Part shown: in pieces, positions 3,263 to 27,898 of the stretch
Numbering within the stretch: position 1 is the first letter of the stretch
Layout: every line of letters begins with the position of its first letter
Origin: Nitrosomonas sp.
GTDB taxonomy: Bacteria; Pseudomonadota; Gammaproteobacteria; Burkholderiales; Nitrosomonadaceae
DNA: 64,000 nt
Reading direction: 5' to 3'
NCBI RefSeq assembly: GCF_024282095.1
Contig: NZ_JAMWZS010000005.1
Location: 29,051 to 93,050 of the forward strand
Program-made: the position numbers and the translations under genes
Notes under the pieces: generated by a model
What the model saw: the letters and a program-made list of their open reading frames with translations, nothing else
Told to the model about the DNA's origin: nothing
Database searches by the model: none

Positions 3263-4264
3263 TCAGTTATTGGCAACCTGAAGTGCATCGCTATGCAGAT
3301 AAGGTGGAATCAATACGCGAATGGGTCTTGGGCTGATGCAGAACGCAACGGTGCTTTCCGCCTCGATATCGCGATTGCGGAAATAATCGCCATCCACTTG
3401 CAGCGGGTAAGATTGCTGATGCAGGGTACATGCAATATGTTTTCCTGAAAAATACTGCATGGGCAGATTTGCGGGTTTGTGTTGCAGGATTTTCATGGCT
3501 TTGATCAACTCATGCTGATGCCGTGCTCCCGGTAGGAAACCCAAAACAAGCTCGTTTTTTGATGGATCAGCAGTTGGCACGAGTTGCAAATTTCTGGCAT
3601 ACGCTGAATTGTTGGCCACTATGATATATCCGGACCCATGATCAATGACTTGTTTTCCATCAACGCTGACCGATACCGTCGGATGATGCAAGGCGCATAA
3701 CGCTTTCAGTCCATGCCAGATATAAATCGAATCATTCAACGGTCCTTTCCGTTTACCGATATTCTTGACCGTCAGCGAATCCAGACCCATGGATGCCATA
3801 TGAAAGAAAGGCTTTTCCCCTTGGATGCCTTGACCGCTGATTAAGCCATAGAATTGCTGCAGGCATGTTCCTGCATCAATGGCCCGAAGCAAGTCATCGG
3901 CGCTGGTACTCATTTCATAGGAACGTGCAAATAATGATTCATTGCCACCCGGGATGGCATAAATCGGCGTGCCCGTTTGGTTGATGGCATCCAGCAATTT
4001 TCTGATGGTGCCGTCTCCGCCGACTACCACGACAAGATCACTGGCTGCGATATCGTCTGTAATGCGCGTGTAACCTTTCATCTTTTTTTCAGAGGTGCGC
4101 ACGGTAACGACTTTTCCTTGCAAAGCCAATGCCATTTCCAGCTTGCAGGCGAGTGTTTCGGTATTGCCTGCACTGGATATCGGGTTATAGATAATCAGGA
4201 TTTTCTGTGGTGACGGTATTTTGATGATCAGCTGATCGGGTTGAAATAGGGAATTATTTTTCAT
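3263..4264 (-). CDS. Diacylglycerol kinase-family lipid kinase
   Basis: Member of the DAGK/sphingosine-kinase-like fold (DAGKc domain), which transfers phosphate to diacylglycerol or a related lipid. Visible: an N-terminal nucleotide-binding start (ILIIYNPISSAGN), the hallmark GGDGT around residues 84-88, and a following 'IPGGNESLFAR' where classical enzymes have 'PlGTgNdfAR', so the nucleotide-binding loop is somewhat divergent. The C-terminal half is the usual beta-sandwich. ATG 4264 is preferred over an in-frame TTG at 4267. It begins 17 bp after the stop of the glycosyltransferase gene and is almost certainly co-transcribed with it. In this setting it could recycle diacylglycerol or act on a related lipid; the substrate is an inference. 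Confidence 0.8.
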   Translation of the reverse strand: MKNNSLFQPDQLIIKIPSPQKILIIYNPISSAGNTETLACKLEMALALQGKVVTVRTSEKKMKGYTRITDDIAASDLVVVVGGDGTIRKLLDAINQTGTPIYAIPGGNESLFARSYEMSTSADDLLRAIDAGTCLQQFYGLISGQGIQGEKPFFHMASMGLDSLTVKNIGKRKGPLNDSIYIWHGLKALCALHHPTVSVSVDGKQVIDHGSGYIIVANNSAYARNLQLVPTADPSKNELVLGFLPGARHQHELIKAMKILQHKPANLPMQYFSGKHIACTLHQQSYPLQVDGDYFRNRDIEAESTVAFCISPRPIRVLIPPYLHSDALQVANN

Positions 4265-4281
4265 CAAAGTCTAATATTCAG

Positions 4282-5325
4282 TTAAGCACATGCAACGGGT
4301 GATACGGTTACCCCAGACCAAATCTGCTGGTACCATGATCGATCAATCGGCGGCATGCCATCCTTGATCCATTGCACCAGATACCGGGCGGTATTCGGAT
4401 AAGTGACGCGAACGGCTTGGGTTGCATAGAGCCATTGCTCAATCAGTGCAGCATCCATGACGTGCATCATGCGTCCGTAACCTAACGTTTGCAGCGCCAG
4501 TGCATTGGATACCTGCTCCATCTGTGCATGTACCGGTTTTACCAGGATTTTCTTGCCCAGTTGTAACGATTCGCTGGCCAGTTCAAAGCCGGCGTTGCAA
4601 ATGATGCCCGCACAATCCGCCAAATCGCTTTGAAAGCCTTCCAGCGATAGCGGCTTGCAGTGAATGTGTTCGTGCGCGGAGGGGATGACCTCAGGGGAGT
4701 AGTTGAAAAATTCGAATGCTTTGAAGGGCGCCAAAATTGCCATCACACGATGCTGATCTTCAAACGGCAGGTAGACGACGATTTTATTTTTTTGTGTCCG
4801 CTGTTGCGCGATGGGTGTTTCAATCACCGGTGGCAGAATGGGCTGATCAAAATGATGCCAATGCAAACCGATGCCGGTACTCACCGGCGCAAAATTGCTC
4901 ATGACAGCTTCAGACAACGGATCATTACCCGCGCGCGGGATGTCGTATTGAAACGCATATTGATGGCTGATGCCGATAGTTTTCTTGTTTTGCCGGCGTG
5001 CCGCCCAAGCGGTTACCGGTTCGTAATCGCAAATAACCAGATCGTAGCTACTCAAATCCAATTGTTTGATGTCTCTCAGGAAATGTAGCGGTTTGGATTG
5101 AAATACTGTTTTCAAGTGATTGATTTTGCCGTTCTGAGTACTGAAAGTCAGGCCTTGGCGCCATTGATAACCGTTAAAAACATGCATGTCGAAAAACTTA
5201 TCCTGCGGCCTGCCGCTAAACTGATAAGTCACTTCAAAATTCGCAGCTTGTAATTCCCTGGCCATAATCCGGCCGCGCGTGATATGACCGTTACCTGTTC
5301 CCTGAATACCATAAAATATTTTCAT
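4282..5325 (-). CDS. MJ1255/VC2487-family glycosyltransferase
   Basis: GT-B fold glycosyltransferase of the MJ1255/VC2487 type, related to MurG and diacylglycerol glucosyltransferases. The N-terminus MKIFYGIQGTGNGHITRG is the acceptor-side glycine loop; the C-terminal half carries the donor-binding pattern 'CNAGFELASESLQLGKK' followed by 'PVHAQMEQVSNA'. There is no membrane segment, consistent with a peripheral cytoplasmic enzyme. ATG 5325 is chosen because family homology starts exactly there and a GGGAAG lies ten bases upstream; an in-frame TTG at 5343 adds six unrelated residues. First gene of a two-gene unit with the lipid kinase, behind a cluster of Pho-box half-sites. A role in making a phosphate-free glycolipid from diacylglycerol is inferred from context. 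Confidence 0.78.
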   Translation of the reverse strand: MKIFYGIQGTGNGHITRGRIMARELQAANFEVTYQFSGRPQDKFFDMHVFNGYQWRQGLTFSTQNGKINHLKTVFQSKPLHFLRDIKQLDLSSYDLVICDYEPVTAWAARRQNKKTIGISHQYAFQYDIPRAGNDPLSEAVMSNFAPVSTGIGLHWHHFDQPILPPVIETPIAQQRTQKNKIVVYLPFEDQHRVMAILAPFKAFEFFNYSPEVIPSAHEHIHCKPLSLEGFQSDLADCAGIICNAGFELASESLQLGKKILVKPVHAQMEQVSNALALQTLGYGRMMHVMDAALIEQWLYATQAVRVTYPNTARYLVQWIKDGMPPIDRSWYQQIWSGVTVSPVACA

Positions 5326-5437
5326 ATTAGTGTGACTTCCCAACGGATTGGCGTGGCATTGAATGCGAACCTGAATCAGCCAGTGTATTAATATTCTTTG
5401 GTGGCATCATCATGGTCATATTCAACGAGACCAACAA

Positions 5438-5561
5438 AGTTTAGCGATCTGCGATGACAAAAAAATGACGGTTTTTTGGCGTTTATGTGACAGTTTGATG
5501 GATATTGGATTATTGAATCGACACCTAGAGTGACAGTCATCCGGTGGTTCATGAGTGACAT
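5438..5561 (-). promoter_or_regulatory. Candidate PhoB-box array and -10 for the glycosyltransferase operon
   Basis: Reading the minus strand, five seven-base half-sites resembling the Pho-box unit CTGTCAT/C occur: ATGTCAC (5561-5555), CTGTCAC (5536-5530), CTGTCAC (5493-5487), CCGTCAT (5471-5465) and TTGTCAT (5460-5454). The last two are separated by exactly four T residues, the canonical 7-4-7 spacing, and the third unit is 22 bp (two 11-bp steps) further up. A -10-like TAAACT (5443-5438) lies ten bases after the last unit, the spacing known for PhoB-activated promoters. Binding by PhoB is inferred from the pattern alone. Confidence 0.65.
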
Positions 5562-5592
5562 GTTGCAGTGAATCAACGACGCTTCTGGTCAG

Positions 5593-6507
5593 TTAACTGT
5601 TTTGCATCCATTGATGGATTTGTTGGCGCTGATCGGCGTACCATAATTTGCCGACATCTAATGCTTTTTGCTGCATGACCGCGTTATTGGCGGAATCCAT
5701 ACTGTCCGGCATATCGAAGTTTTTCAGACAATGATTGATATACAACAAGCGATTGCCCAGCATTTCCCCGGTCATTCTGACATTTGCCATCATCTTCTCT
5801 CTGAGAATGATGGACGCGATTCCTTTCGCCGACCATTGTAATCCGCCATAGCCGCACGCCTTGGCGCCGTTCACTGCAAAGCTGCGCCAGCCTGAGCCGA
5901 TGGAGAGCACTTTGATTTCGCAGGCATGCCAATATTGCTTGGCATGGAGATAGCTGCTGAGCCCGGGGTTATTCATGCCGACACCGCCATCGATGCGCCA
6001 GTCGCCATCCGCCATTTGCACGGGCGGGTAAAACGATGGTGCCGCTGTACAGGCATCGGCGATTTCGCTTAACAGGAAATCCGGCTGGTTGTCATTGGTG
6101 AAAACTTCCAGTTGATCCTGATTGAGGTTGAAACAGGGAATCAATATGCGCTTGCTGAGCGATGACAGCCTCAAGCTTCCCAGTTCTTTTTGTAACGCCA
6201 AACGCTTCGAAGTGCCTTGATACTTTGGGCGGATTTGCAGTTTATTGAATAACCGATTTACCCAATGTTCTGCCATTATTTTTTCCAGCAATTTTTCTTG
6301 CTCGACTAATCGGATGATTGCTGTTGCACTCATGCCGCGTCCCATGATCAGGCAGGTAATCAATCCCCCTGATGAGGAACCGGCCATCATGTCAAATAGA
6401 TCGTAGGTTGAGGTGCCGGTGTCTTGTTCCAAACAAGCCAATACGCTCAATTGAATCAGCAAATGACTGCCGCCGCCGTCCAGACTGAGGACATGCTTAA
6501 CTTGCAA
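5593..6507 (-). CDS. Patatin-like phospholipase
   Basis: Patatin-fold lipid acyl hydrolase with a Ser-Asp dyad. Visible: oxyanion loop DGGGS (residues 10-14), nucleophile elbow GSSSG (43-47, serine 45), and the catalytic aspartate in DGGVGMNNPG (about residue 174). At 304 residues it is normal for soluble bacterial patatins; no signal peptide. The start is TTG 6507: there is an in-frame stop six codons upstream, no in-frame ATG before the conserved region, and a GGAG lies seven bases in front. It is read in the same direction as the phosphoesterase 87 bp upstream and the glycosyltransferase downstream. Probable role: releasing acyl chains from phospholipids during lipid turnover. No cyclic-nucleotide synthase is nearby, so a CBASS effector role is not supported. 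Confidence 0.85.
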   Translation of the reverse strand: MQVKHVLSLDGGGSHLLIQLSVLACLEQDTGTSTYDLFDMMAGSSSGGLITCLIMGRGMSATAIIRLVEQEKLLEKIMAEHWVNRLFNKLQIRPKYQGTSKRLALQKELGSLRLSSLSKRILIPCFNLNQDQLEVFTNDNQPDFLLSEIADACTAAPSFYPPVQMADGDWRIDGGVGMNNPGLSSYLHAKQYWHACEIKVLSIGSGWRSFAVNGAKACGYGGLQWSAKGIASIILREKMMANVRMTGEMLGNRLLYINHCLKNFDMPDSMDSANNAVMQQKALDVGKLWYADQRQQIHQWMQNS

Positions 6508-6594
6508 TGCGCATCTCCGATATCATCCAGTGCCTCCAATATCATCCTGAGTGATACAGTTTGCAGCGGTTTGGAAGCTTGTCATGTTGCGGGC

Positions 6595-7404
6595 TTACGC
6601 AGCTTTTTTACTGGCCAGCAATTCTTCCTGCACATAGTTTTTGTGTTGCTCAAACCGCTCGGACCAGAAAACCAGTTCCAATGATCCATCGTTATGTTCC
6701 AGCAATGTGGAGCAACTTTCCACCCAATCACCGTCATTGCAATACAGTATCGAGTTGATTTCTCTCAATTCAGCGTGGTGGATGTGACCGCAAACTACGC
6801 CATCGACGCCACGATCTTTTGCCAGATGCGCCAATGCATCCTCAAAACTGCTGATGTAGCTGACTGCGTTTTTTACCCGCAATTTTAGATAGGCTGCGAG
6901 CGACCAATAAGAAAACCCGAAGTATTTGCGTAAACCGTTGATGTAGTGATTCAGATCCAGCAACGTATCGTAGGCGACATTGCCGAGTTTTGCGAGCCAG
7001 CGGCTATTTTTGACGATGACATCAAATTCATCGCCATGCATGATCAACAGCTTTTTACCTTCGGCTGTAGTGTGTACATAATCCTGGTGAATTTCCACAT
7101 TACCGAAAACGTGACCAACGCAGTCCCGCATACCTTCATCATGATTACCCGGTATATAAATGACTTTGGTGCCATGTTTGGCTTTGCCTAAAATGGACCG
7201 GACCACATTGGTATGCGCTTGCGGCCAATAAGGACTCTTTTTGATACTCCAGAAATCGACGATATCGCCGACCAGGAAAAGGTAATCGGTTTCAACCGAA
7301 TGCAGAAAATGCAGCAGCGCTTCCGCTTGGCAACCGCGGAACCCGAGATGCACATCGGAAATCCAAACACTTCTTACTTTGATAGGGGCTTTATTTTTTA
7401 ACAT
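6595..7404 (-). CDS. LpxH/PlcP-like calcineurin-type phosphoesterase
   Basis: Metal-dependent phosphoesterase of the LpxH-like group (COG2908 type). The five metal-site blocks are present: SDVHLG (Asp17, His19), GDIVDFW, GNHDE, HGDEFD, and GHIHHAE near the C-terminus. Family members of this size (about 270 residues) include UDP-2,3-diacylglucosamine hydrolases and PlcP, a phospholipase C that strips head groups from phospholipids under phosphate limitation to give diacylglycerol. Neighbouring patatin, glycosyltransferase and lipid kinase genes favour the PlcP reading, but sequence alone does not separate it from a lipid A enzyme. ATG 7404 is the first in-frame start. The final residues KKAA are not diagnostic. 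Confidence 0.8.
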   Translation of the reverse strand: MLKNKAPIKVRSVWISDVHLGFRGCQAEALLHFLHSVETDYLFLVGDIVDFWSIKKSPYWPQAHTNVVRSILGKAKHGTKVIYIPGNHDEGMRDCVGHVFGNVEIHQDYVHTTAEGKKLLIMHGDEFDVIVKNSRWLAKLGNVAYDTLLDLNHYINGLRKYFGFSYWSLAAYLKLRVKNAVSYISSFEDALAHLAKDRGVDGVVCGHIHHAELREINSILYCNDGDWVESCSTLLEHNDGSLELVFWSERFEQHKNYVQEELLASKKAA

Positions 7405-7477
7405 ACATGCCTTTTTAAGTGGATAAGTGACGGTTCCACAGCATAAAGTGTGTTTGTTAAGCTTCCTTGAAGTATTT

Positions 7478-7506
7478 GTTAAATATTCATGAAATCTTTG
7501 TGAAAA
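7478..7506 (-). promoter_or_regulatory. Weak Pho-box-like tract upstream of the LpxH/PlcP-like gene
   Basis: On the minus strand three seven-base units spaced exactly 11 bp, TTTTCAC, ATTTCAT and ATTTAAC, resemble the CTGTCAT/C unit but lack its G. They lie about 75-100 bp before the ATG at 7404. No convincing -10 follows at the expected distance. Recorded as a possible degenerate Pho box only. Confidence 0.22.
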
Positions 7507-7612
7507 AAGCTTGGGGAGTGATTTTTGCTATGAATCTTTGATGCCGATCAGCGGATTCAAGTAAGATTTGTTTTCGACAACATCTTAACCGGCGACACTA
7601 CACCCGAACATA

Positions 7613-8641
7613 ATGCATAGCACACCCACTTTGAAACAGGCATTACCCGAGCTGCAGCAAATTGAAGCCATTATTCAGCAGGACAACGCCGTGCATTTAC
7701 ATACTAGGGTGCTATGCCGCGTAGCTTGTGGTGATAGTGAATTGCCGGTGTATGTGCTGACACTCGGCAATAGTGCGCAAGATATTCCGTGTGTGACGTA
7801 TGTCGCCGGTATCCATGGGTTGGAGCGTATTGGCACGCAAGTGGTCATTGCATTTCTTGAGGGCCTGCTGGAGCGTTTGAAGTGGGATCGGGTTCTGGCT
7901 GAAATGCTGCAGCGGGTAAGAATTAACATCCTGCCCATCGTCAATCCAGTTGGGATGTTGAATAACACTCGCGCAAACGGGCAAGGCGTCGATCTGATGC
8001 GCAATGCGCCGGTGGACAGTCACGAAAAAACCATTCTACTGGCCGGCGGGCACCGCATTTCATCCCGATTGCCGTGGTACCGCGGCAAAGCGGATGAGTC
8101 CATGCAACCGGAAGCGCAGGCGTTGTGCGATTTTATTGCGCAAGAAGTTTTACCTGCGCCGTTCAGCCTGGTTCTGGATTGTCATTCCGGTTTCGGTTTT
8201 CGCAACCAAATCTGGTTTCCTTATGCCAGAAGCCGGCTTGAGCCGATCAAACATTTAAAGGAAGTGTGTAATCTGCGCAATCTCTTCATGCAAACCTATC
8301 CGCATCAGGATTATCTGTTTGAACCGCAATCGCAGCATTATCTGGTGCATGGCGATCTATGGGATTTTCTGTATCTGAAATCGCTGCAGAACGATAACGT
8401 TTTTCTGCCATTGACACTGGAAATGGGGTCGTGGCGATGGATACGCAAGAATCCGCTGCAGTTACGCCGATTGTCGGGGCTATATCACCCGATCAAGCTG
8501 CATCGACTCAATCGGGTGTTGAGAAGCCACTTAATTCTGATGGAATTTTTGTTGCATGCAACGTTATCGTATCAAAACTGGATTAATGACAGTGATGCGC
8601 TGGAATTGGAGCAACAAGCGCGGGTGCTCTGGTATTCATGA
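7613..8641 (+). CDS. M14-family zinc carboxypeptidase/deacylase-like protein
   Basis: Zinc hydrolase of the M14 / succinylglutamate desuccinylase-aspartoacylase superfamily. Zinc ligands are visible as HGLE (His68, Glu71) and a later histidine in LDCHSGFG; VDLMRN matches the substrate-arginine region and the late LTLEMGSW supplies the catalytic glutamate. There is no signal peptide, so it acts in the cytoplasm. It overlaps the following hydrolase gene by four bases (ATGA), indicating coupled translation. It is divergent from the phosphoesterase gene; 208 bp separate the two starts. Substrate unknown: peptide, amide or acyl-amino-acid substrates are all possible. Confidence 0.75.
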   Translation: MHSTPTLKQALPELQQIEAIIQQDNAVHLHTRVLCRVACGDSELPVYVLTLGNSAQDIPCVTYVAGIHGLERIGTQVVIAFLEGLLERLKWDRVLAEMLQRVRINILPIVNPVGMLNNTRANGQGVDLMRNAPVDSHEKTILLAGGHRISSRLPWYRGKADESMQPEAQALCDFIAQEVLPAPFSLVLDCHSGFGFRNQIWFPYARSRLEPIKHLKEVCNLRNLFMQTYPHQDYLFEPQSQHYLVHGDLWDFLYLKSLQNDNVFLPLTLEMGSWRWIRKNPLQLRRLSGLYHPIKLHRLNRVLRSHLILMEFLLHATLSYQNWINDSDALELEQQARVLWYS

Positions 8642-9384
8642 TGCAACGTGAACATTTTGTGCTGATCCGCGGATTATTGCGTGAAGCCCGGCACTGGGGG
8701 GAATTTACCGGCAATCTGCAGCAACAATTTTCCGATGCCGTGATCAGTACACCGGATATCCGAGGCAATGGCCGGTTGCATCAGCTCACCAGCCCAAAAA
8801 CCATCGCGGGAATGACCGAAGCACTGCGCCAGCAAATCGACACAACCCAACCGCTCAGATTGATCGCACTCTCGATGGGCGGAATGATCGCGATGGATTG
8901 GATGACGCGCTATCCCCATGAAGTGGCAACAGTTGTTTTAATCAACACCAGCGCGAGACCGCTATCGCCGTTTTACCATCGCTTGCGCTGGACGATCTAT
9001 CCTCAAGTGCTCAAGATGATTACCCATTCTGCTGCACAAAGGGAAGCGGATATTCTGAATCTGACTTCAAACCGCCATCAGCACGACAGTAAATTGCTGG
9101 GGTCCTGGCAGCAGTGGCGGCAGCAAAATCCGGTGTCAACGGCCAGCGCCAGGAATCAATTTCTGGCAGCGCTAAAATTTTCCATCGCAGCCAAGCCGCA
9201 ACAGCCCATACTCGTTGTGACCAGCCAAGCGGATCGTCTGGTGGATTACCGTTGCAGCCTGAAACTGGCACAAACCTGGCAAACCGGCTATGTGCAGCAT
9301 GAGTCGGCGGGGCATGATTTGCCGCTGGATGAGCCGGAATGGTTGGCTGAAATCATCAGGAAGTGGGTTGATCAGAAAATTTAA
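8638..9384 (+). CDS. Alpha/beta-fold hydrolase
   Basis: Alpha/beta hydrolase of esterase/lipase type, 248 residues, no signal peptide. The nucleophile elbow is ALSMGG (serine near residue 81), the acid is likely the aspartate in SQADRLV and the histidine is in SAGHDLPLDEP near the C-terminus, so the triad is complete. Oxyanion-side RGLL replaces the usual HG motif. Starts with ATG overlapping the previous stop (ATGA), so the two form a translationally coupled pair. Substrate not predictable; the lipid-gene neighbourhood suggests an ester or lysolipid. Confidence 0.78.
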   Translation: MMQREHFVLIRGLLREARHWGEFTGNLQQQFSDAVISTPDIRGNGRLHQLTSPKTIAGMTEALRQQIDTTQPLRLIALSMGGMIAMDWMTRYPHEVATVVLINTSARPLSPFYHRLRWTIYPQVLKMITHSAAQREADILNLTSNRHQHDSKLLGSWQQWRQQNPVSTASARNQFLAALKFSIAAKPQQPILVVTSQADRLVDYRCSLKLAQTWQTGYVQHESAGHDLPLDEPEWLAEIIRKWVDQKI

Positions 9385-9391
9385 TTTAAAT

Positions 9392-9604
9392 TTAGACGGT
9401 TATTTCAGCATATGGAACAATACTTGTTGGCTGCGGTACAGGCAAACCATCTTCAATCATACCTTCGATATGCAGTTCAATCGCGTCACGAATTTCCTGT
9501 TCTGCTTCCTCAATGGTAGCGCCGGTTGCTATGCAACCAGGCAAATCGGGCACATAGGCTGAGTAGTTATTTTCCGCTTTTTCGACAACGATTGCGTAAT
9601 GCAT
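9392..9604 (-). CDS. hicB: HicB-family antitoxin
   Basis: Small antitoxin of the HicAB type II system: it adopts a degraded RNase-H-like fold that covers the HicA toxin. Recognisable pattern: MHYAIVVEKAENNYSAYVPDLPGC, then GATIEEAEQEIRDAIELHIEGM and a short C-terminal tail. At 70 residues it is the short form without a separate DNA-binding domain. ATG 9604 lies three bases after the stop of the upstream hicA remnant, the standard order and spacing. Because the partner toxin gene is internally deleted, this may be an orphan antitoxin. Confidence 0.88.
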   Translation of the reverse strand: MHYAIVVEKAENNYSAYVPDLPGCIATGATIEEAEQEIRDAIELHIEGMIEDGLPVPQPTSIVPYAEITV

Positions 9605-9607
9605 GAT

Positions 9608-9712
9608 TTACTCCTTCAGTTTCGCTTGCTTGAATTGTCGATGACTGCCTCGTGTTGTGACAAGATACCAGCCATCTCGTTTCAGCATGCTCAAAATTTC
9701 ATTTACTTTCAT
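9608..9712 (-). pseudogene. hicA: hicA toxin gene with internal deletion
   Basis: Directly upstream of hicB is a 34-codon frame that begins as a normal HicA (MKVNEILSMLKRDGWYLV, then TTRGSHRQFK with the catalytic-type histidine at residue 24) but then jumps to QAKLKE and stops. Intact HicA proteins have about 60 residues, continue from HRQ[FY]K through a beta-strand and helix, and end in ...LKQAGLKE. The visible product therefore looks like the two ends of HicA joined, with about 25 central-to-late codons lost in frame. The ATG (9712) and the spacing to hicB are preserved. The product is predicted to be inactive. Confidence 0.75.
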
Positions 9713-9779
9713 GAAAATAGGATAACAGATTGCAATAGCTTTTCCACAATGCCCAATGTTCGATAGTTATAAGATGCCG

Positions 9780-10025
9780 TTAATGATTTCCACGCAGTAA
9801 GCCAGACACACTGAGGTCTTCATCGATATCTGGCCAATGGATACCTTCACCATCGCCCAGAAGTTCGTAGTTCGTTCGCTGATTTTTCGTGGCAGCTGCC
9901 AAGCGAGGAAACCACACTAAAGGAACAATGATTTTTCTTCCATCCACCAGAGAGACAATCATATCGTCATCTGTAAATTCAACACCTTCTGCTAAAGCAT
10001 ATGTTTCAACTGCCAATATACTCAT
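9780..10025 (-). CDS. DUF2442-domain protein
   Basis: Small DUF2442 protein (81 residues). Pattern: VEFTDDDMIVSLVDGRKIIVPLVWFPRLAAATKNQRTNYELLG, then EGIHWPDIDEDLSVSGLL, the typical fold core with a conserved W-P-D-I-DED. The start is placed at ATG 10025 because the domain begins right there; an upstream ATG at 10088 would add 21 residues lying inside the preceding gene. It overlaps the DUF4160 gene by 20 bases. DUF4160/DUF2442 pairs recur on mobile DNA and are thought to behave like toxin-antitoxin modules; that role is not proven and is inferred here. Confidence 0.8.
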   Translation of the reverse strand: MSILAVETYALAEGVEFTDDDMIVSLVDGRKIIVPLVWFPRLAAATKNQRTNYELLGDGEGIHWPDIDEDLSVSGLLRGNH

Positions 10026-10242
10026 TCCATGCCTCCATAAACATCTGTCGATTTTCGTCAACGTGCTTCTGTATCGCTCGTAACTCATGTGAAGAAAAGT
10101 GCTTTGAGCTTGCTAACCCGACGGGATTTAACCAGAATTTAGCAAGAAATCTCTCGCGTTGCACGTGAATGTGTGGTGGCTCGCCTTTTTCGTTGCTGTA
10201 AAAGAAGAAACGATAAGAACTTAACCTGAGTATTGTGGGCAT
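10006..10242 (-). CDS. DUF4160-domain protein
   Basis: DUF4160 protein of 78 residues. Key pattern: MPTILRLSSYRFFFYSNEKGEPPHIHVQ with the conserved 'EPPHIHV', followed by AKFWLNPVGLASSKHFSSHELRAIQKHVDENR. Upstream member of a two-gene unit with DUF2442, overlapping it by 20 bases. The pair is next to hicBA, so this 850-bp stretch holds two toxin-antitoxin-like modules inserted between the hydrolase pair and olsF. Biochemical function of the family is not known to me. Confidence 0.82.
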   Translation of the reverse strand: MPTILRLSSYRFFFYSNEKGEPPHIHVQRERFLAKFWLNPVGLASSKHFSSHELRAIQKHVDENRQMFMEAWNEYIGS

Positions 10243-10514
10243 ATTGTTACCTACTTCATCCTTTTTTAGGCATAAAGTTTGAGTTATCTGTTTTCATGAA
10301 GAGTGGATTCTCAGCTTGGTTTCTGCCTCGCGCAGGAGTGAATGGTAAGAGCGTATCTGTACTTCAGGTATATTACGATTCCACGCGGTTCGCGAAAACT
10401 CTTTAGGCGAAGTTGATCGCGCAAATATGCCTGCGCTTCAGCGCAGGCATCGATATCATCATATCAAATTCGCCAATCTCTCGGAAATTCAGTTAATAAA
10501 TCAGTAAAAAGTTA
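10243..10514. other. Non-coding stretch with a perfect hairpin
   Basis: No gene is visible between the DUF4160 start and the olsF promoter. The one clear structure is a perfect inverted repeat at 10427-10450: ATGCCTGCGC, loop TTCA, GCGCAGGCAT (10-bp stem). It is not followed by a T-run in either direction, so a simple terminator is unlikely; a REP-like or recombination site is possible. Confidence 0.5.
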
Positions 10515-10548
10515 ACGTCATTTTTCTGTCACATTAATCCTCTATCGT
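10515..10548 (+). promoter_or_regulatory. Candidate Pho box and -10 for olsF
   Basis: ACGTCAT (10515-10521), TTTT, then CTGTCAC (10526-10532) fits the Pho-box layout of two seven-base units 11 bp apart; the second unit is a perfect consensus match and the first matches five of seven. A -10-like TATCGT (10543-10548) follows after exactly ten bases, the same geometry as at the glycosyltransferase operon. It lies 50 bp before the olsF ATG. PhoB control is inferred. Confidence 0.62.
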
Positions 10549-10582
10549 ATCCAACATTCAATTCCCGTAATGGAGTCGGTTT

Positions 10583-12340
10583 ATGCTGAATGTCGATGCC
10601 TTGCTGAAAGATTATTTTCAGAATACGGATGAGGCCAATGACAAGCCGCTGATGAAGGCGGCTTCCTCAGTCTTAAAAAAGCTTTTTCATCAGAAAGAAA
10701 TTAACGATTTCATTGAGACTCACCAATATCTGGAGGGATTGGAGTTTAACGATGCGGTACTGGAGCATTTTAATTTTACCTTTCAGGTTTCCAGCAAAGA
10801 CCGCGCACGCATCCCTGATCAACGTCGTTTGCTGATTGTCGCCAATCATCCCATCGGCTCGCTGGATGGATTGGCGCTGCTCAAGCTGGTATCGGAGATC
10901 AGAACCGATGTGAAGGTTGTTGCAACGGCTTTGTTGAATTGTATTGATCCGCTGAAAAGCTTGTTTCTCTCGGTGGACAACTCGTCAGAATCAGCCAATC
11001 ATCGCGAAAGCATGCATCAGATAGTTGAGGCACTGGAAGCGGAGCAGGCGGTCATTTTATTTCCAACCGGAGAAGTTTCGCGAATTTCCCCGATGGGCGT
11101 ACGCGATGGTAAATGGAAAACCGGTTTCTTATCGCTAGCCAAGAAAACCAAGACTCCCATTGTTCCAGTCTATATCGGTGGCAAGAATTCAACGCTGTTT
11201 TATGGCCTTTCCAGTATCTATAAACCGTTAGGTACAGTGATGCTGGTCAATGAGATGTTCAACCAAAAGGGCGGTGAAATTTCATTTCGGATCGGCAAAC
11301 CGATCCCGTGGGAATCGATTGCGGCAATGGATTTATCCAAAAAAGCTGTGGCGAAACTGATGCGCAAGCAGGTCTATTTATTAGGTAAGAAGAAGAAAAA
11401 AGAACTGTTCAAACCGATTGAAAATATCATTCACCCAGTTCGCACCCAATTAATCCGCAAGGAATTGAAAGCTTCGCAACTCATTGGTAAAACCCAGGAT
11501 GGCAAGCACATCTATTTATTTGACTATATGTCGAATTCCAGTGTGATGCGTGAAATCGGCCGGTTGCGAGAATTATCTTTCAGGCAGGTACAGGAGGGAA
11601 CCGGTAATGCTCTGGATATCGACAGTTATGATCGCTATTACCGGCACCTGATTCTCTGGGACGAAGACGAATTGGAAATTATCGGCTCCTATCGCATCGG
11701 AGAAGCCGCCAGGATTCTCAAGGAACATGGAGAAGCAGGGCTGTACACTCATAGCTTATTCGAGTTTAGTCCAGCGTTTAGGCCTTATCTGGAGCACGCG
11801 ATCGAGTTGGGGCGCAGTTTCATTCAACCCAGATATCAGGGGAAACGCAGCCTGGATTATCTGTGGTATGGAATTGGCGCTTATCTGTATCAGCATCCAG
11901 AGATACGCTATATGGTTGGGCCGGTTTCGCTGAGCACTTCTTTGCCTGAGTCTGCGCAGAGAGTGATTGCAGGTTTTTATACAGGGCTTTTCGGCAAAGA
12001 CGAATTGCTTGTTCGTGCCAGACTTCAATTTGAATTTGATCTGATTGAAGATTTTTCACCATTCAATAAGGTTTCGGATGCAACTGAATATAAGCAAGCC
12101 TATGCGGTGCTTAAAGAAAAAATGGAAGAATTTGGCGTAAAGGTGCCGGTATTGTATAAGCAATACGTGGAGCTATGCGAGCCGGGTGGTTGTGAATTTC
12201 TGGGTTTTAATATTGATCCTAGTTTTTCGAACTGCGTGGATGCATTGATTCTGGTGCATATCAATGCCATTAAAGAAAAGAAACACCAGCGCTATATTGA
12301 AAGCCATGCAGTAGTTACGCAGAATCTGCATTCTGCATAA
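10583..12340 (+). CDS. olsF: OlsF-type bifunctional ornithine-lipid acyltransferase
   Basis: Fusion of two acyltransferases that together make ornithine lipid, a membrane lipid without phosphate. The N-terminal half is a PlsC/OlsA-like O-acyltransferase: NHPIGSLDG (His89 to Asp95, an HX5D variant of the usual HX4D) and ILFPTGEVSR as the acceptor motif. The C-terminal half (from about residue 300) is a hemolysin/OlsB-like GNAT N-acyltransferase (RELSFRQVQEG, then YDRYYRHLILWDEDELEIIGSYRIG). 585 residues is the expected length for the fusion. ATG 10583 has GGAG seven bases upstream. A candidate Pho box precedes it. Known for OlsF: the C-terminal domain N-acylates ornithine and the N-terminal domain O-acylates the product. 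Another aminolipid cannot be excluded. Confidence 0.85.
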   Translation: MLNVDALLKDYFQNTDEANDKPLMKAASSVLKKLFHQKEINDFIETHQYLEGLEFNDAVLEHFNFTFQVSSKDRARIPDQRRLLIVANHPIGSLDGLALLKLVSEIRTDVKVVATALLNCIDPLKSLFLSVDNSSESANHRESMHQIVEALEAEQAVILFPTGEVSRISPMGVRDGKWKTGFLSLAKKTKTPIVPVYIGGKNSTLFYGLSSIYKPLGTVMLVNEMFNQKGGEISFRIGKPIPWESIAAMDLSKKAVAKLMRKQVYLLGKKKKKELFKPIENIIHPVRTQLIRKELKASQLIGKTQDGKHIYLFDYMSNSSVMREIGRLRELSFRQVQEGTGNALDIDSYDRYYRHLILWDEDELEIIGSYRIGEAARILKEHGEAGLYTHSLFEFSPAFRPYLEHAIELGRSFIQPRYQGKRSLDYLWYGIGAYLYQHPEIRYMVGPVSLSTSLPESAQRVIAGFYTGLFGKDELLVRARLQFEFDLIEDFSPFNKVSDATEYKQAYAVLKEKMEEFGVKVPVLYKQYVELCEPGGCEFLGFNIDPSFSNCVDALILVHINAIKEKKHQRYIESHAVVTQNLHSA

Positions 12341-12942: not shown

Positions 12943-13806
12943 ATGAAGTTCGATACCCCACTACGTTACCCGGGCGACAAAGCCAGATTGGCAGACTTTT
13001 TCAAGATGGTTTTTAGGCACAATGCCTTGCTGGACGGTCATTACGTTGAGCCATATGCTGGCGGCGCTGGGATAGCGCTAAACTTGCTTACTCAGGGCTA
13101 TGTATCCTGTATTCATCTGAACGATTTGAGTCCTGCTGTATTTGCTTTCTGGCATAGCGTTATCAATCAACCGGAAGAGCTTTGTAGAGCCATTCATGAT
13201 GTAAAAATAACAAAAGAAGAATGGCTTAAACAAGAAGCTATTCTTAATACGCCTGCCGATCATAGTCTGCTTGAGGTCGGATTCTCGAACTTTTTTCTGA
13301 ATCGTACTAACCGACCAGGAGTGCTCTGGAAAAATGCATTCAGGGAAATAAAACAGAGCGAGCTTTGGGCGGTTGATCCGCGTTTTAACAAAAATGAGTT
13401 GATTCGCCGGATTGAATGGATTGCCATGTTTCGCCCACGGATTCGCTTGTATAACCTGGATGCAGAAGAATTTATTAAATCCGTATTGCCTGCACTTCCA
13501 AGTAAAACGCTCGTTTATCTTGATCCTCCCTACTATGTCAAAGGATGGTGGCCTTATGAAGGCGACTATTCACATGATGACCATATAAACATCGCAAAGC
13601 TGGTCAAGGAACAGATCGACCAGTATTGGATGGTTTCATACGACAATGTACCAGAAGCCATTGAAATGTATAAAGGTTACCCATCTATAGTCTATGATAT
13701 GAAGCATCGTGCGCGAGATAGCTACATAGGTACTGAGATCATGTTTTTTAGCGATAGACTGATTATTCCTGATGTAGATAATCCTGTGGATCTGAAGGCA
13801 GCTTAA
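12943..13806 (+). CDS. D12-class (Dam-like) adenine-N6 DNA methyltransferase
   Basis: Solitary N6-adenine methyltransferase. AdoMet site: YVEPYAGGAGIAL (motif I) plus an N-terminal FDTPLRYPGDKARL block typical of Dam/D12 enzymes; catalytic motif IV is DPPYY (about residue 198). At 287 residues it is near the usual Dam length. ATG 12943 has a GGGA eight bases upstream. No restriction endonuclease, specificity subunit or phage gene is adjacent, so it is best called an orphan methylase; the next gene downstream is an IS256 remnant. Sequence specificity cannot be told from the protein alone. Confidence 0.85.
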   Translation: MKFDTPLRYPGDKARLADFFKMVFRHNALLDGHYVEPYAGGAGIALNLLTQGYVSCIHLNDLSPAVFAFWHSVINQPEELCRAIHDVKITKEEWLKQEAILNTPADHSLLEVGFSNFFLNRTNRPGVLWKNAFREIKQSELWAVDPRFNKNELIRRIEWIAMFRPRIRLYNLDAEEFIKSVLPALPSKTLVYLDPPYYVKGWWPYEGDYSHDDHINIAKLVKEQIDQYWMVSYDNVPEAIEMYKGYPSIVYDMKHRARDSYIGTEIMFFSDRLIIPDVDNPVDLKAA

Positions 13807-15771: not shown

Positions 15772-16091
15772 ATGAAGAATCAAATCAGTTATTCACCGGA
15801 AGTACGAGAACGAGCGGTAAGATTGGTATTCGAGCAGCAAAAGGAGCATGGATCGCAGTGGTCGGCGATCAAATCGATTGCATCAAAGATTGGCTGCACA
15901 GCGGAAACATTGCGGACATGGGTAAGAAGAGCGGAGACCGATCAGGGAATTCGGGGAGGCATGTCGACTGCGGATCGGGAAAGGCTCAAGGAATTGGAGC
16001 GGGAGAATCGGGAATTAAAGCGAGCCAACGAGATATTGCGTAAGGCATCGGCTTATTTTGCCCAGGCGGAGCTCGACCGCCGACCGAAATA

Positions 16092-16092
<1 letters not shown>
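15772..16092 (+). CDS. IS3-family transposase OrfA
   Basis: 106-residue OrfA with an N-terminal helix-turn-helix ([18 protein letters not shown], then [20 protein letters not shown]) and a C-terminal leucine-zipper-like segment ([22 protein letters not shown]) used for dimerisation. ATG 15772 follows a GAGGAGGAG ribosome site. Its stop overlaps the ATG of orfB by one base (TAATG). Confidence 0.9.
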
Positions 16093-24997: not shown

Positions 24998-27898
24998 TTA
25001 CGTCGCCACAATCACCCGCACGGCGTCGAGCCGCAGATTGCTGGACTTCAATGCATTGGTCAGTTGCAGCAATTGCTGTTCAAAGAATTGAATTTCTTCT
25101 GCGCGTACGTTCGGATTGACTTGTTGCAAGGCTTTGAGGCGTTCGATTTCCGGGAAGAAGGTTTGTTTTATTCGTGTTTCAGCCTGCGCAATGAGTTGCG
25201 GTGCTTGCGCATTAGCTTTTTGCTCGCTTAAAGTCAGCAAGGCCTTTATCGCATCTTCTTTCAGTTGAATCACCTGTTTGGCGATACCTGCCGCTACCGC
25301 TGCCAAATGCTGATTGATCGCATCGTGCTCCAGGTGCGGATAATCGTCGTTACCCTGTTCATCCAGCAAAACACGAATCAACGCGGACGGCAAGTAGCGA
25401 TTACCTTGCTGCACACCTTGCCCGCCCGCTTCCAGCACGAACAGGCTTTCCAGAAATAAGGTGCCCGGTTGTACTTTTTTATGTTTCATGGCAGAAACCA
25501 CGGCGTTACCGGTTTCATGATTCAGGATTCTTTCCATCGCGTGGATGACCATCGGATGTTCCCACGTCAGGAAGTGCATATCTTCATTGGCGAGCGCAAC
25601 ATTCCTGGCATACGTAATCACCGAGCCTTCATCCTGCAAGCCGGGAAACGGCATGCTCATGTGTTCGCTCGGCTCAATCAGAAAACTACCGGCGCGGTGT
25701 TCTTCGACATGGACGCCACAACAATCGAACACCGTCTCCATGTATTGCAGCAGTACGGGATCGTCATCCTGAGCGCACGCTTCCTGATACAGTCTTTCCG
25801 CAATAGCGGGACGAAAAGAATTATATTCCAGCAGCTTATCGCGCCCGCGATCCAACGCCTCGTTCAATGCCTGATTGACCGATTGTGTAACAGCGATCAG
25901 ATCGGACAACGTGTCACCGTGGGTTTGACGCTGATGCAGCGCAGCGATAAGCGCGCCTTCCGTTTGCGAGAAGACGGTTTGGCCTGCCGGGCAGGTTTTC
26001 TCAAACGCATTCAAGCCCTCGTGGTACCAGTGAAACATCACCGCCAGCGCGCTGTTTTCCAGATAGGAAACATGAATCTGAATGGTTTCCGTCTGCCCGA
26101 TACGATCCAATCGGCCTATGCGCTGCTCCAGCAAGTCAGGATTGAGCGGCAAATCAAATAACACCAGATGATGGGAAAATTGAAAATTGCGCCCTTCGCT
26201 ACCGATTTCCGAACAAATCAATACCTGCCCGCCAGCATCCTTATCGGCAAAATAGGCCGCTGCACGGTCACGTTCAATCAAACTCATGCTCTCATGAAAT
26301 ACCGGTATATATTGGCCAGTCAGAATCTTGAGTGCCTGAGCGATATCCCGGGCGGTTTGCGCATTAGCGGTAATAACCAGCACTTTTTCCGGTTTCAACT
26401 GCTTGAGCGTGACAGTTAACCAGTGAATACGCGGATCTACGTCTGTCCAATAGGGATCTTCCGGCTCGGCTCTGACCTGATAGAGCAATTCAGGGCACAA
26501 CAACAATTGGGGTTTTGACAGGTTCGTTGTTTCAAAGGTGGTCAAACATTGCTGATATTGTGCCGGTAACATCAGGGGAACCGCGTTAAGTTTGCGCTCA
26601 GGAAATCCTTTAACCGCAGCACGCGTGTTACGAAACAATATGCGACCGGTTCCATGCCGATCCAGCAATAATTCAGCCAACATTTTTCTTGCCCGCCGGC
26701 TTTGTTCCCCATCTGCTTCCTGGCCTTGTAGCTGCGCAAGCAATTCTTTGCATTGCGCGGAATCGACGGTCGAAATAATCATCTGCCGGATTGCGTCATT
26801 CAGCTTCCGGCCTTCCAATAACGCTTCGACTGCTTTGGCAATCGGCTCATAGGATTGTTCTTCAGCAACAAAAGCCGCAAAGCTGTTGAAGCGATCCGGG
26901 TCAAGCAAGCGCAGGCGCGCAAAATGACTGGCTTTGCCTAATTGCTCCGGGGTCGCTGTCAATAACAGCACGCCCTTGATACAGGACGCCAATTGCTCAA
27001 TCATGGCATACTCCGGGCTGATCTCCTGTTCAGACCAGCGTAAATGATGCGCTTCATCGACCACCAACAAGTCCCAATTGCCTGCCAGTGCAGCCTGAAA
27101 TCGTTTTGGGTTTTGGCACAAAAAATTCAAGCTGCACAGTATGAGTTGCTCACTATGAAATGGATTTTCCCACTCGCCACCTTCTTCCAGTGACTGGCAG
27201 CGTGCTTCATCAAATATGCTGAATTGCAGATTGAAACGCCGCAGCATTTCCACCAGCCACTGGTGTATCAAGGTTTCCGGAACCACAATAAGTACGCGCT
27301 TGACACGTTCTGTCAACAATTGCTGGTGTAGTATCAATCCCGCTTCAATTGTTTTTCCCAACCCCACTTCGTCCGCCAGTAAAACACGGGGCGCATAACG
27401 ACGCGCAACTTCATGCGCAATATAGAGTTGATGCGGAATCAGGCTGGTACGAGTACCAATCAGTCCGCATAGCGGCGCATGCGCCAGTTGATTACGCATC
27501 AGCAAGGTTTGATAGCGAATCCGGAACCATTTGTCCTGGTCAAACTGGCCGGTAAATAAGCGTTCTGCCGGACGGTTCAATTGCAGATGATGTGCTAGCT
27601 GTTCTTCGGCGAGTTCAAGCCAATCTCCGCGCTCACTTACGCCGGAATAGACAACCAGGCCATCATGCTCATCCACTTGCTCGACTTTCAATGAAATGCC
27701 GTCATGGCTACTGATGACATCGCCCACCTTGAAAATAACACGTGTCAACGGTGCTGAAAGCCTGGCGTATGCGCGAGTTTCGTTCACCGCTCCAAAAGCG
27801 ATAATTATCACTCTATGTTCAACATTCCGGACCGTGCCCAGACCCAGTTGTAAATCAACATCGCAAATCCAACGTTGACCCGGCTTAAAATCGTGCAT
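24998..27898 (-). CDS. rapA: RNA polymerase-associated SWI2/SNF2 ATPase RapA
   Basis: Recycles RNA polymerase by using ATP to release stalled post-termination complexes. 966 residues, full length for RapA. The N-terminal Tudor-like part opens FKPGQRWICDVDLQLGLGTV; helicase motifs follow: ADEVGLGKTIEAG (Walker A), VVDEAHHL (DEAH box), LLTATPEQLG (motif III), SEIGSEGRNFQF and RIGRLDRIGQ (motif VI). The C-terminal region matches the RapA-specific domain, ending LRLDAVRVIVAT. ATG 27898 has no obvious ribosome site. A monocistronic minus-strand gene between an IS3 scar and a DUF2490 gene. Confidence 0.95.
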   Translation of the reverse strand: MHDFKPGQRWICDVDLQLGLGTVRNVEHRVIIIAFGAVNETRAYARLSAPLTRVIFKVGDVISSHDGISLKVEQVDEHDGLVVYSGVSERGDWLELAEEQLAHHLQLNRPAERLFTGQFDQDKWFRIRYQTLLMRNQLAHAPLCGLIGTRTSLIPHQLYIAHEVARRYAPRVLLADEVGLGKTIEAGLILHQQLLTERVKRVLIVVPETLIHQWLVEMLRRFNLQFSIFDEARCQSLEEGGEWENPFHSEQLILCSLNFLCQNPKRFQAALAGNWDLLVVDEAHHLRWSEQEISPEYAMIEQLASCIKGVLLLTATPEQLGKASHFARLRLLDPDRFNSFAAFVAEEQSYEPIAKAVEALLEGRKLNDAIRQMIISTVDSAQCKELLAQLQGQEADGEQSRRARKMLAELLLDRHGTGRILFRNTRAAVKGFPERKLNAVPLMLPAQYQQCLTTFETTNLSKPQLLLCPELLYQVRAEPEDPYWTDVDPRIHWLTVTLKQLKPEKVLVITANAQTARDIAQALKILTGQYIPVFHESMSLIERDRAAAYFADKDAGGQVLICSEIGSEGRNFQFSHHLVLFDLPLNPDLLEQRIGRLDRIGQTETIQIHVSYLENSALAVMFHWYHEGLNAFEKTCPAGQTVFSQTEGALIAALHQRQTHGDTLSDLIAVTQSVNQALNEALDRGRDKLLEYNSFRPAIAERLYQEACAQDDDPVLLQYMETVFDCCGVHVEEHRAGSFLIEPSEHMSMPFPGLQDEGSVITYARNVALANEDMHFLTWEHPMVIHAMERILNHETGNAVVSAMKHKKVQPGTLFLESLFVLEAGGQGVQQGNRYLPSALIRVLLDEQGNDDYPHLEHDAINQHLAAVAAGIAKQVIQLKEDAIKALLTLSEQKANAQAPQLIAQAETRIKQTFFPEIERLKALQQVNPNVRAEEIQFFEQQLLQLTNALKSSNLRLDAVRVIVAT

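Follow-up and report, generated by a model that had tools for sequence, protein, structure and literature searches.

A probable PhoB-controlled membrane-lipid remodelling locus in Nitrosomonas with a TIGR00661-type glycosyltransferase

How might an ammonia oxidiser rebuild its membrane lipids when phosphate runs short? This question is raised by a locus of 9 kb in a 64,000-nucleotide stretch of Nitrosomonas sp. (RefSeq assembly GCF_024282095.1, contig NZ_JAMWZS010000005.1, positions 29,051 to 93,050; hereafter the window), part of a genome of 2.8 Mb (contig 26 of G000 in our numbering). A first-pass annotation of the DNA had read the genes as a single phosphate-starvation lipid programme. Profile scans recovered every lipid gene it had named within these 9 kb, together with a divergent hydrolase pair (7613-9384) that it had not listed and small toxin-antitoxin-like open reading frames (ORFs). 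The proposal of a single programme is supported by family identity, conserved gene order, co-occurrence of PlcP with the glycosyltransferase, apparent replacement of this pair by an OlsB-PlcP-Agt cassette, and conserved Pho boxes at three promoters. We consider it quite likely that this is a PhoB-controlled membrane-remodelling locus, in which phospholipid would be dismantled and a sugar lipid and ornithine lipid would be made. Its features are as follows.

3263-4267, minus strand: lipid (diacylglycerol-type) kinase with a GGDGT motif (PF00781, 57.5 bits, cut-off 23.6)
4282-5343, minus strand: TIGR00661 (MJ1255/VC2487) glycosyltransferase, a proposed diacylglycerol glycosyltransferase (238.6 bits, cut-off 195.9)
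5454-5493, minus strand: Pho-box array upstream of the glycosyltransferase gene, with its core, CCGTCATTTTTTTGTCAT, at 5454-5471
5593-6507, minus strand: patatin-like phospholipase, a CapV relative (PF01734)
6595-7404, minus strand: predicted PlcP, a phospholipase C-type metallophosphoesterase (BLAST identity to PlcPs, motif alignment)
7467-7506, minus strand: degenerate four-unit Pho-box array with an 11-bp period upstream of plcP, conserved across the genus
7613-8641, plus strand: M14-family zinc carboxypeptidase-like gene, divergent from plcP (associated)
8638-9384, plus strand: alpha/beta hydrolase gene, overlapping the M14 gene (associated)
10515-10532, plus strand: Pho box upstream of olsF, ACGTCATTTTTCTGTCAC
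10583-12340, plus strand: OlsF, a predicted bifunctional ornithine-lipid synthase (NF052615, 787.8 bits, cut-off 620)

In the proposed programme, low phosphate would cause PhoB to turn on three units, plcP-patatin, glycosyltransferase-lipid kinase and olsF. PlcP would strip the phosphate-bearing headgroups from phospholipids to leave diacylglycerol (DAG), which the TIGR00661 glycosyltransferase would cap with a sugar, in the role of Agt. The lipid kinase would return surplus DAG to phosphatidic acid and so balance the pool, OlsF would supply ornithine lipid, and the patatin might release acyl chains. Every catalytic step is predicted from family membership, and we likewise infer the sugar, the direction of the kinase reaction, the transcription units and the regulation by phosphate.

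Is the phosphoesterase PlcP, or the lipid A enzyme LpxH? BLAST comparison gave 47 to 57% identity to the PlcPs compared, including 55.5% over 236 amino acids to that of Pseudomonas aeruginosa and 47.3% over 241 amino acids to that of Sinorhizobium meliloti. Alignment showed all of the metallophosphoesterase motifs DxHLG, GDxxD, GNHDE, HGD and GHIHH, which we take to be metal ligands. The S. meliloti plcP (L020) adjoins the genes of a LuxR-type regulator and an acyl-homoserine-lactone synthase, and we assume from gene order that it is the experimentally tested one. In the P. aeruginosa record (L021), plcP is followed by a glycosyltransferase gene and then by an adenylate cyclase gene, presumably, on the same grounds, the PA3219/PA3218 arrangement. 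Experimental tests of that arrangement are described in the accessible text of PMC8528852. Scores of only 33.0 bits with TIGR01854 (cut-off 190.35) and 37.9 bits with PRK05340 (cut-off 134) led us to reject LpxH identity, and the placement among lipid A enzymes that the first-pass annotation had held against its own reading was not what we found. Judged by its sequence, the protein at 6595-7404 is PlcP. The branch of E. coli LpxH in a tree of 13 sequences was very long (2.75), and this tree therefore places LpxH poorly; a PDB sequence search with PlcP gave nothing useful.

The protein might still be LpxH, or serve as LpxH, in a cluster for lipopolysaccharide synthesis. It is the sole match to PRK05340 in its own genome at E 0.01, and annotated plasmid records of relatives mostly carry the label UDP-2,3-diacylglucosamine diphosphatase. 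Moreover, neither LpxH over cut-off nor LpxI was found in any of the 10 Nitrosomonas genomes searched, its own included, in a search whose coarse first pass made TIGR01854 miss the window's own weak match. We nevertheless regard this explanation as very improbable. The model scores and the identity to PlcPs speak against it, as do the Pho boxes and the neighbouring OlsF and glycosyltransferase. Furthermore, in our genus sample of 85 Nitrosomonas genomes, which includes the window's own, a PlcP match is absent from 31 genomes, and from 23 of the 70 more complete ones. Four near-complete PlcP-negative genomes gave either no LpxH match (three) or one of 15.9 bits (one). Without a credible LpxH these genomes carry out the step without PlcP, so lipid A synthesis in the genus seems not to require PlcP.

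What, then, would the glycosyltransferase do beside PlcP? It is of the MJ1255/VC2487 type (TIGR00661/PF13528), lies over the curated cut-off, and is 97% identical to that of Nitrosomonas sp. Nm84; an alternative start at 5325, with conserved MKIFYGIQGTGNGH, would fit as well. Its earlier label, MurG/DAG-glycosyltransferase-like, has to be replaced by TIGR00661, as no such model matched at E 0.01. MurG identity was rejected on this ground, and Agt identity because BLAST at 1e-3 gave no match to PaAgt1 or SphAgt (GT4); at 1e-20, no Agt match was found in the window's own genome. PDB sequence searches matched no solved structure to the enzyme. A literature search, with most subscription papers outside its reach, found no function for MJ1255, PF13528, TIGR00661 or the Glyco_trans_1_3 family, and for VC2487 the accessible texts give only a promoter bound by ChiS.

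The distribution of the enzyme across the genus sample points to a shared pathway with PlcP. The glycosyltransferase is over cut-off in 45 genomes, PlcP is found in 54 and Agt in nine. PlcP and the glycosyltransferase occur together in 44 genomes and are both lacking from 30; ten have PlcP without the glycosyltransferase, and a single genome, 88% complete (G084), has the reverse. The 54 PlcP genomes divide into 44 with the glycosyltransferase, nine with Agt, one with neither (G083, 76% complete) and none with both. All nine Agt genomes are PlcP-positive, and a TIGR00661 enzyme exceeds the cut-off in none of them. Fisher tests gave p = 2.6e-13 for co-occurrence and 1.9e-9 for exclusion, values that overstate independence, given that the genomes are related. 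PlcP and the glycosyltransferase were seen on one stretch in 35 genomes, no more than 1.5 kb apart in 25. Additionally, the lipid kinase gene lies 3' of the glycosyltransferase gene on the same strand in all 44 genomes in which both were seen (median gap 70 bp, at most 213 bp); a 45th glycosyltransferase locus is cut by a contig end and falls outside this count. The kinase itself, a lipid kinase in the first-pass annotation too, carries a DAG kinase catalytic domain over the PF00781 cut-off, and scores below the cut-offs of TIGR00147 (52.4 bits) and other specific models.

The nine Agt loci suggest the function more directly. PlcP directly precedes Agt in all nine, and an OlsB-like gene precedes PlcP in eight (L043, L108-L111 and L113-L115; none was detected in L112); the single OlsB scanned scored 146 bits, below the OlsB model cut-off of 320. 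The Agt-type PlcP is of a different lineage, which groups with a Burkholderiales PlcP (one representative, support 0.988, 13-sequence tree). In four of these loci (L109, L110, L111 and L114), the cassette adjoins the patatin, lipid kinase and hydrolase-pair genes found in the window, and the window-type plcP and glycosyltransferase genes are absent; no Agt genome has more than one PlcP match. In trees of the kinase, the patatin and M14, these four loci group together (support 1.0, 0.999 and 1.0, respectively), and the kinase tree joins them with two glycosyltransferase-type species with support 1.0. The simplest reading is that an incoming OlsB-PlcP-Agt cassette replaced an older PlcP-glycosyltransferase pair, which implies equivalent function. 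The glycosyltransferase thus probably glycosylates DAG as Agt does.

Several points weigh against this reading. The co-occurrence counts come from related genomes and are not independent events. The patatin tree joins the four loci with the same two species at only 0.40, and the M14 tree gives them another, unsupported neighbour and resolves no sister. In L110, OlsB appears split over two frames. All three trees are midpoint-rooted, and from them we infer the direction of replacement.

The family also extends beyond Nitrosomonas. The nearest relatives outside the genus, among the best 80 of 448 places, which were kept and supplied 46 outside loci, are 62-67% identical. By title, 42 of these loci belong to methanotrophs, which we take to be type I, and four to uncultured proteobacteria. 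In 36 of the 46, the glycosyltransferase gene has a PAP2 phosphatase gene at its start, and PlcP lies within 6 kb in seven; in a Methylobacter locus (L200), the TIGR00661 enzyme is encoded directly 3' of PlcP. A two-unit Pho box exceeds the shuffle threshold before 40 of 44 PAP2 genes examined in outside and class loci, against 3.4% of 297 controls. In a class-wide draw of 369 genomes (family threshold E<=1e-30), the glycosyltransferase family was found in 12, seven of them over cut-off, and PlcP in 104. Outside the genus, PlcP accompanied 8 of 10 family-positive class genomes, including 5 of 5 over cut-off, versus 94 of 357 others (p = 7.7e-4). One more neighbourhood that combines PlcP with an ornithine-lipid gene occurs in another family (L222, 8445-12140): PlcP and a TIGR00661 relative of low score adjoin an OlsB-like gene and, by sight, an acyltransferase-like ORF.

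The physical link is looser here, which counts against the proposal. PlcP is near the glycosyltransferase in only three of the ten class genomes: G372, the only one of the three over the family cut-off, has PlcP, PAP2 and the glycosyltransferase in that order; in G479 PlcP and the glycosyltransferase are adjacent at a contig end, with 193.4 bits, just under cut-off; in G235 they are adjacent, with OlsB next door and 120.6 bits, well under it. In the other seven, PlcP is far away (four), on a different short contig (one) or lacking (two).

PAP2 can convert phosphatidic acid to DAG, and DAG kinase runs the reverse reaction. Acting in opposite directions on DAG, both partners of the glycosyltransferase point to the DAG node. 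Since PAP2 enzymes can also take polyprenyl or lipid A phosphates, an acceptor other than DAG would be compatible too, which is a further point against the proposal. Instead of DAG, the glycosyltransferase might use polyprenyl phosphate, lipid A or a glycosyl lipid, still within the phosphate response; PAP2 partners would also fit this, the enzyme has no solved structure that its sequence matches, and among the control genomes the TIGR00661 model also matches in archaea. We judge this unlikely in view of the mutual exclusion with Agt, which seems to have taken its place next to the same patatin and kinase genes, the proximity of PlcP to the glycosyltransferase in other families (L200, L216 and L219), and the coupling to a DAG-type kinase in 44 of 44 genomes. 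We favour, with some confidence, the proposal that a clade of the MJ1255/VC2487 (PF13528) glycosyltransferases is a second class of phosphate-starvation DAG glycosyltransferase, unrelated to Agt, which would be fed by PlcP in ammonia oxidisers or by PAP2 in type I methanotrophs and be swappable for OlsB-PlcP-Agt.

OlsF is assigned more simply. The match spans residues 1-573 and lies over the NF052615 equivalog cut-off, which upholds the earlier call of an OlsF-type ornithine-lipid synthase. In 18 genomes OlsF and PlcP were encoded on one stretch, a count that comes from fetched stretches and not from whole genomes.

The patatin is the least certain part of the programme. Its gene follows that of PlcP within 173 bp in all 39 genomes with both on one stretch, and its GSSSGG and DGG motifs are invariant in 43 of 43 aligned sequences. 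As a point against its membership, 7 of 46 window-type loci have PlcP without a patatin next to it, and a contig end accounts for at least one of these (L118), so the patatin looks optional. The specific phospholipid-stripping role once given to it thus finds no support, and it may release acyl chains. Could it be an orphan anti-phage effector of the CBASS CapV type, sitting in the operon by chance? Its best NCBIfam match is a CBASS phospholipase model, its PADLOC matches are four 'Effector, Phospholipase' models, and a CBASS phospholipase and CapV are among its PDB matches, of which the top ones carry only the name Patatin. Its score of 130.8 bits lies under the CBASS model's cut-off of 200, and no cyclase was found among the seven other window proteins scanned. 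With its position behind PlcP conserved as well, the effector explanation seems doubtful to us.

Is the locus wired to phosphate? PhoB is encoded in the window's genome (TIGR02154, 349 bits, cut-off 296.2), and the phoB promoter carries its own tandem Pho boxes. In that region (L051, G000 contig 52, about 27090-27320), phoB and a divergent gene, by sight probably for an exported protein, each lie behind tandem Pho boxes. We rejected the Pho-box count of the window alone as evidence: nine boxes versus 5.8 expected, with 12 of 100 shuffles reaching nine, is not significant, and the case therefore rests on conservation across the genus. Genome-wide, CTGTCATNNNNCTGTCAT with up to three mismatches matched 246 sites versus 134 for the reversed pattern. 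No site has fewer than two mismatches, and the window's glycosyltransferase box is among the 19 with two; since 11 of these 19 fall within ORFs only, little can be read from a single site.

Orthologous promoters were counted after those with less than 200 bp upstream, and matches covering less than 85% of the query length, had been dropped. Before the glycosyltransferase gene, 33 of 45 promoters match at least 11 of 14 positions, 27 at least 12, and six are perfect; 4.9% of their shuffles reach 11 and none reaches 12. Scored with two, three and four units, respectively, 33, 30 and 34 of 45 glycosyltransferase promoters exceed 99% of shuffles, as do 15, 35 and 44 of 45 plcP promoters and 5, 7 and 7 of 7 OlsB-cassette promoters. 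With two units all 12 olsF promoters pass, and the olsF box lies at -67 to -69 in 12 of the 12 orthologous promoters examined. By comparison, 0 to 3 pass among the upstream regions of the patatin, kinase, M14, hydrolase, FtsH, FadL and Agt genes (n 9 to 48), and 2.0 to 6.4%, by threshold, of 345 control promoters from the same stretches. The first-pass annotation had counted Pho-box-like promoters on two units. Such promoters are present, but the count is three: strong boxes stand before the glycosyltransferase gene and olsF, and a weaker, degenerate array before plcP, where the best two-unit match in the window is only 9 of 14.

Against this, 12 of the 45 glycosyltransferase promoters fall below 11 of 14 positions, and only 5 and 4 of 12 olsF promoters pass with three and four units. 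The unit matrix, of 11-bp period, has weights that we set from the consensus, and the four-unit plcP array was recognised only after inspection. Nonetheless, the locus appears from these motifs to be under PhoB control.

The genes could also be neighbours by chance or shared inheritance, with separate functions: the units have separate promoters, and in some species the gap between the patatin and the glycosyltransferase reaches 7.7 kb. Conserved Pho boxes common to three promoters, and the recurrence of some partners, rearranged, outside the genus make this explanation hardly credible beside that of one remodelling locus.

The remaining genes of the locus are of less certain relevance. The M14 gene adjoins the alpha/beta hydrolase gene in 36 of 36 genomes with both seen, and no more than 300 bp separate it from PlcP in 27 of 32 with both on one stretch. 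The pair stays beside plcP or olsF across much of Nitrosomonas, and outside the genus 5 of the 46 loci have it close to the glycosyltransferase, PlcP or OlsF. Between the hydrolase gene and olsF (9380-10250, minus strand), there are small ORFs resembling a HicA/HicB pair (by sight), a DUF2442 gene (profile match) and a DUF4160-like ORF (by sight), which look like toxin-antitoxin-type insertions. Downstream of olsF, an adenine-methyltransferase-like ORF (12943-13806) and a transposase-like ORF (15772-16092) were recognised by sight.

How does the locus compare with known systems? In the accessible texts, PlcP-Agt lipid renovation with Pho boxes is established for P. aeruginosa (PMC8528852), Phaeobacter and SAR11 (PMC4796936), and Methylosinus trichosporium OB3b (PMC9239053). 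The window shares with this pathway a PlcP relative, a nearby glycosyltransferase and Pho boxes and, as that text describes for M. trichosporium OB3b, ornithine lipid alongside PlcP-Agt. It differs in having the TIGR00661/PF13528 enzyme, which lacks a BLAST match to Agt (GT4), and in adding a patatin, a lipid kinase and OlsF in the same locus. According to the accessible part of PMC9239053, plcP neighbourhoods of type Ia methanotrophs hold 'another putative DAG glycosyltransferase', likened to one from Bacillus subtilis; these resemble the window in pairing PlcP with a non-Agt glycosyltransferase, the two enzymes being matched by description only. That part of the text does not mention ammonia oxidisers. 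In Vibrio cholerae, OlsF (VC0489) is described, in the accessible text of PMC12186959, as PhoB-controlled, similar to the PhoB link suggested here by a Pho box; unlike the window, the main text of that paper contains neither the word PlcP nor glycolipid. The OlsB-PlcP-Agt cassette of other Nitrosomonas likewise brings three corresponding functions together, with Pho-like boxes before OlsB, and differs in its PlcP lineage, in OlsB in place of OlsF and in Agt in place of TIGR00661. In a search over titles and starts of abstracts, outside which most subscription papers lay, we found neither a description of the locus in ammonia oxidisers nor such a role for TIGR00661/PF13528. PlcP-Agt remodelling is already known; what is new relative to it is the TIGR00661 glycosyltransferase, in an ammonia oxidiser.

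The key enzymes of ammonia oxidisers and methanotrophs reside in internal membranes, which ties the phosphorus need of these bacteria to lipids. A methanotroph without plcP-agt grows more slowly and shows disturbed membrane packing under low phosphate, according to the accessible text of PMC9239053. The locus suggests that nitrifiers share the methanotrophs' low-phosphate lipid option, and points to a tentative function for a glycosyltransferase family that has so far been without one. Two interchangeable gene sets within one genus amount to an experiment of nature that could show which lipid, and which sugar, is needed.

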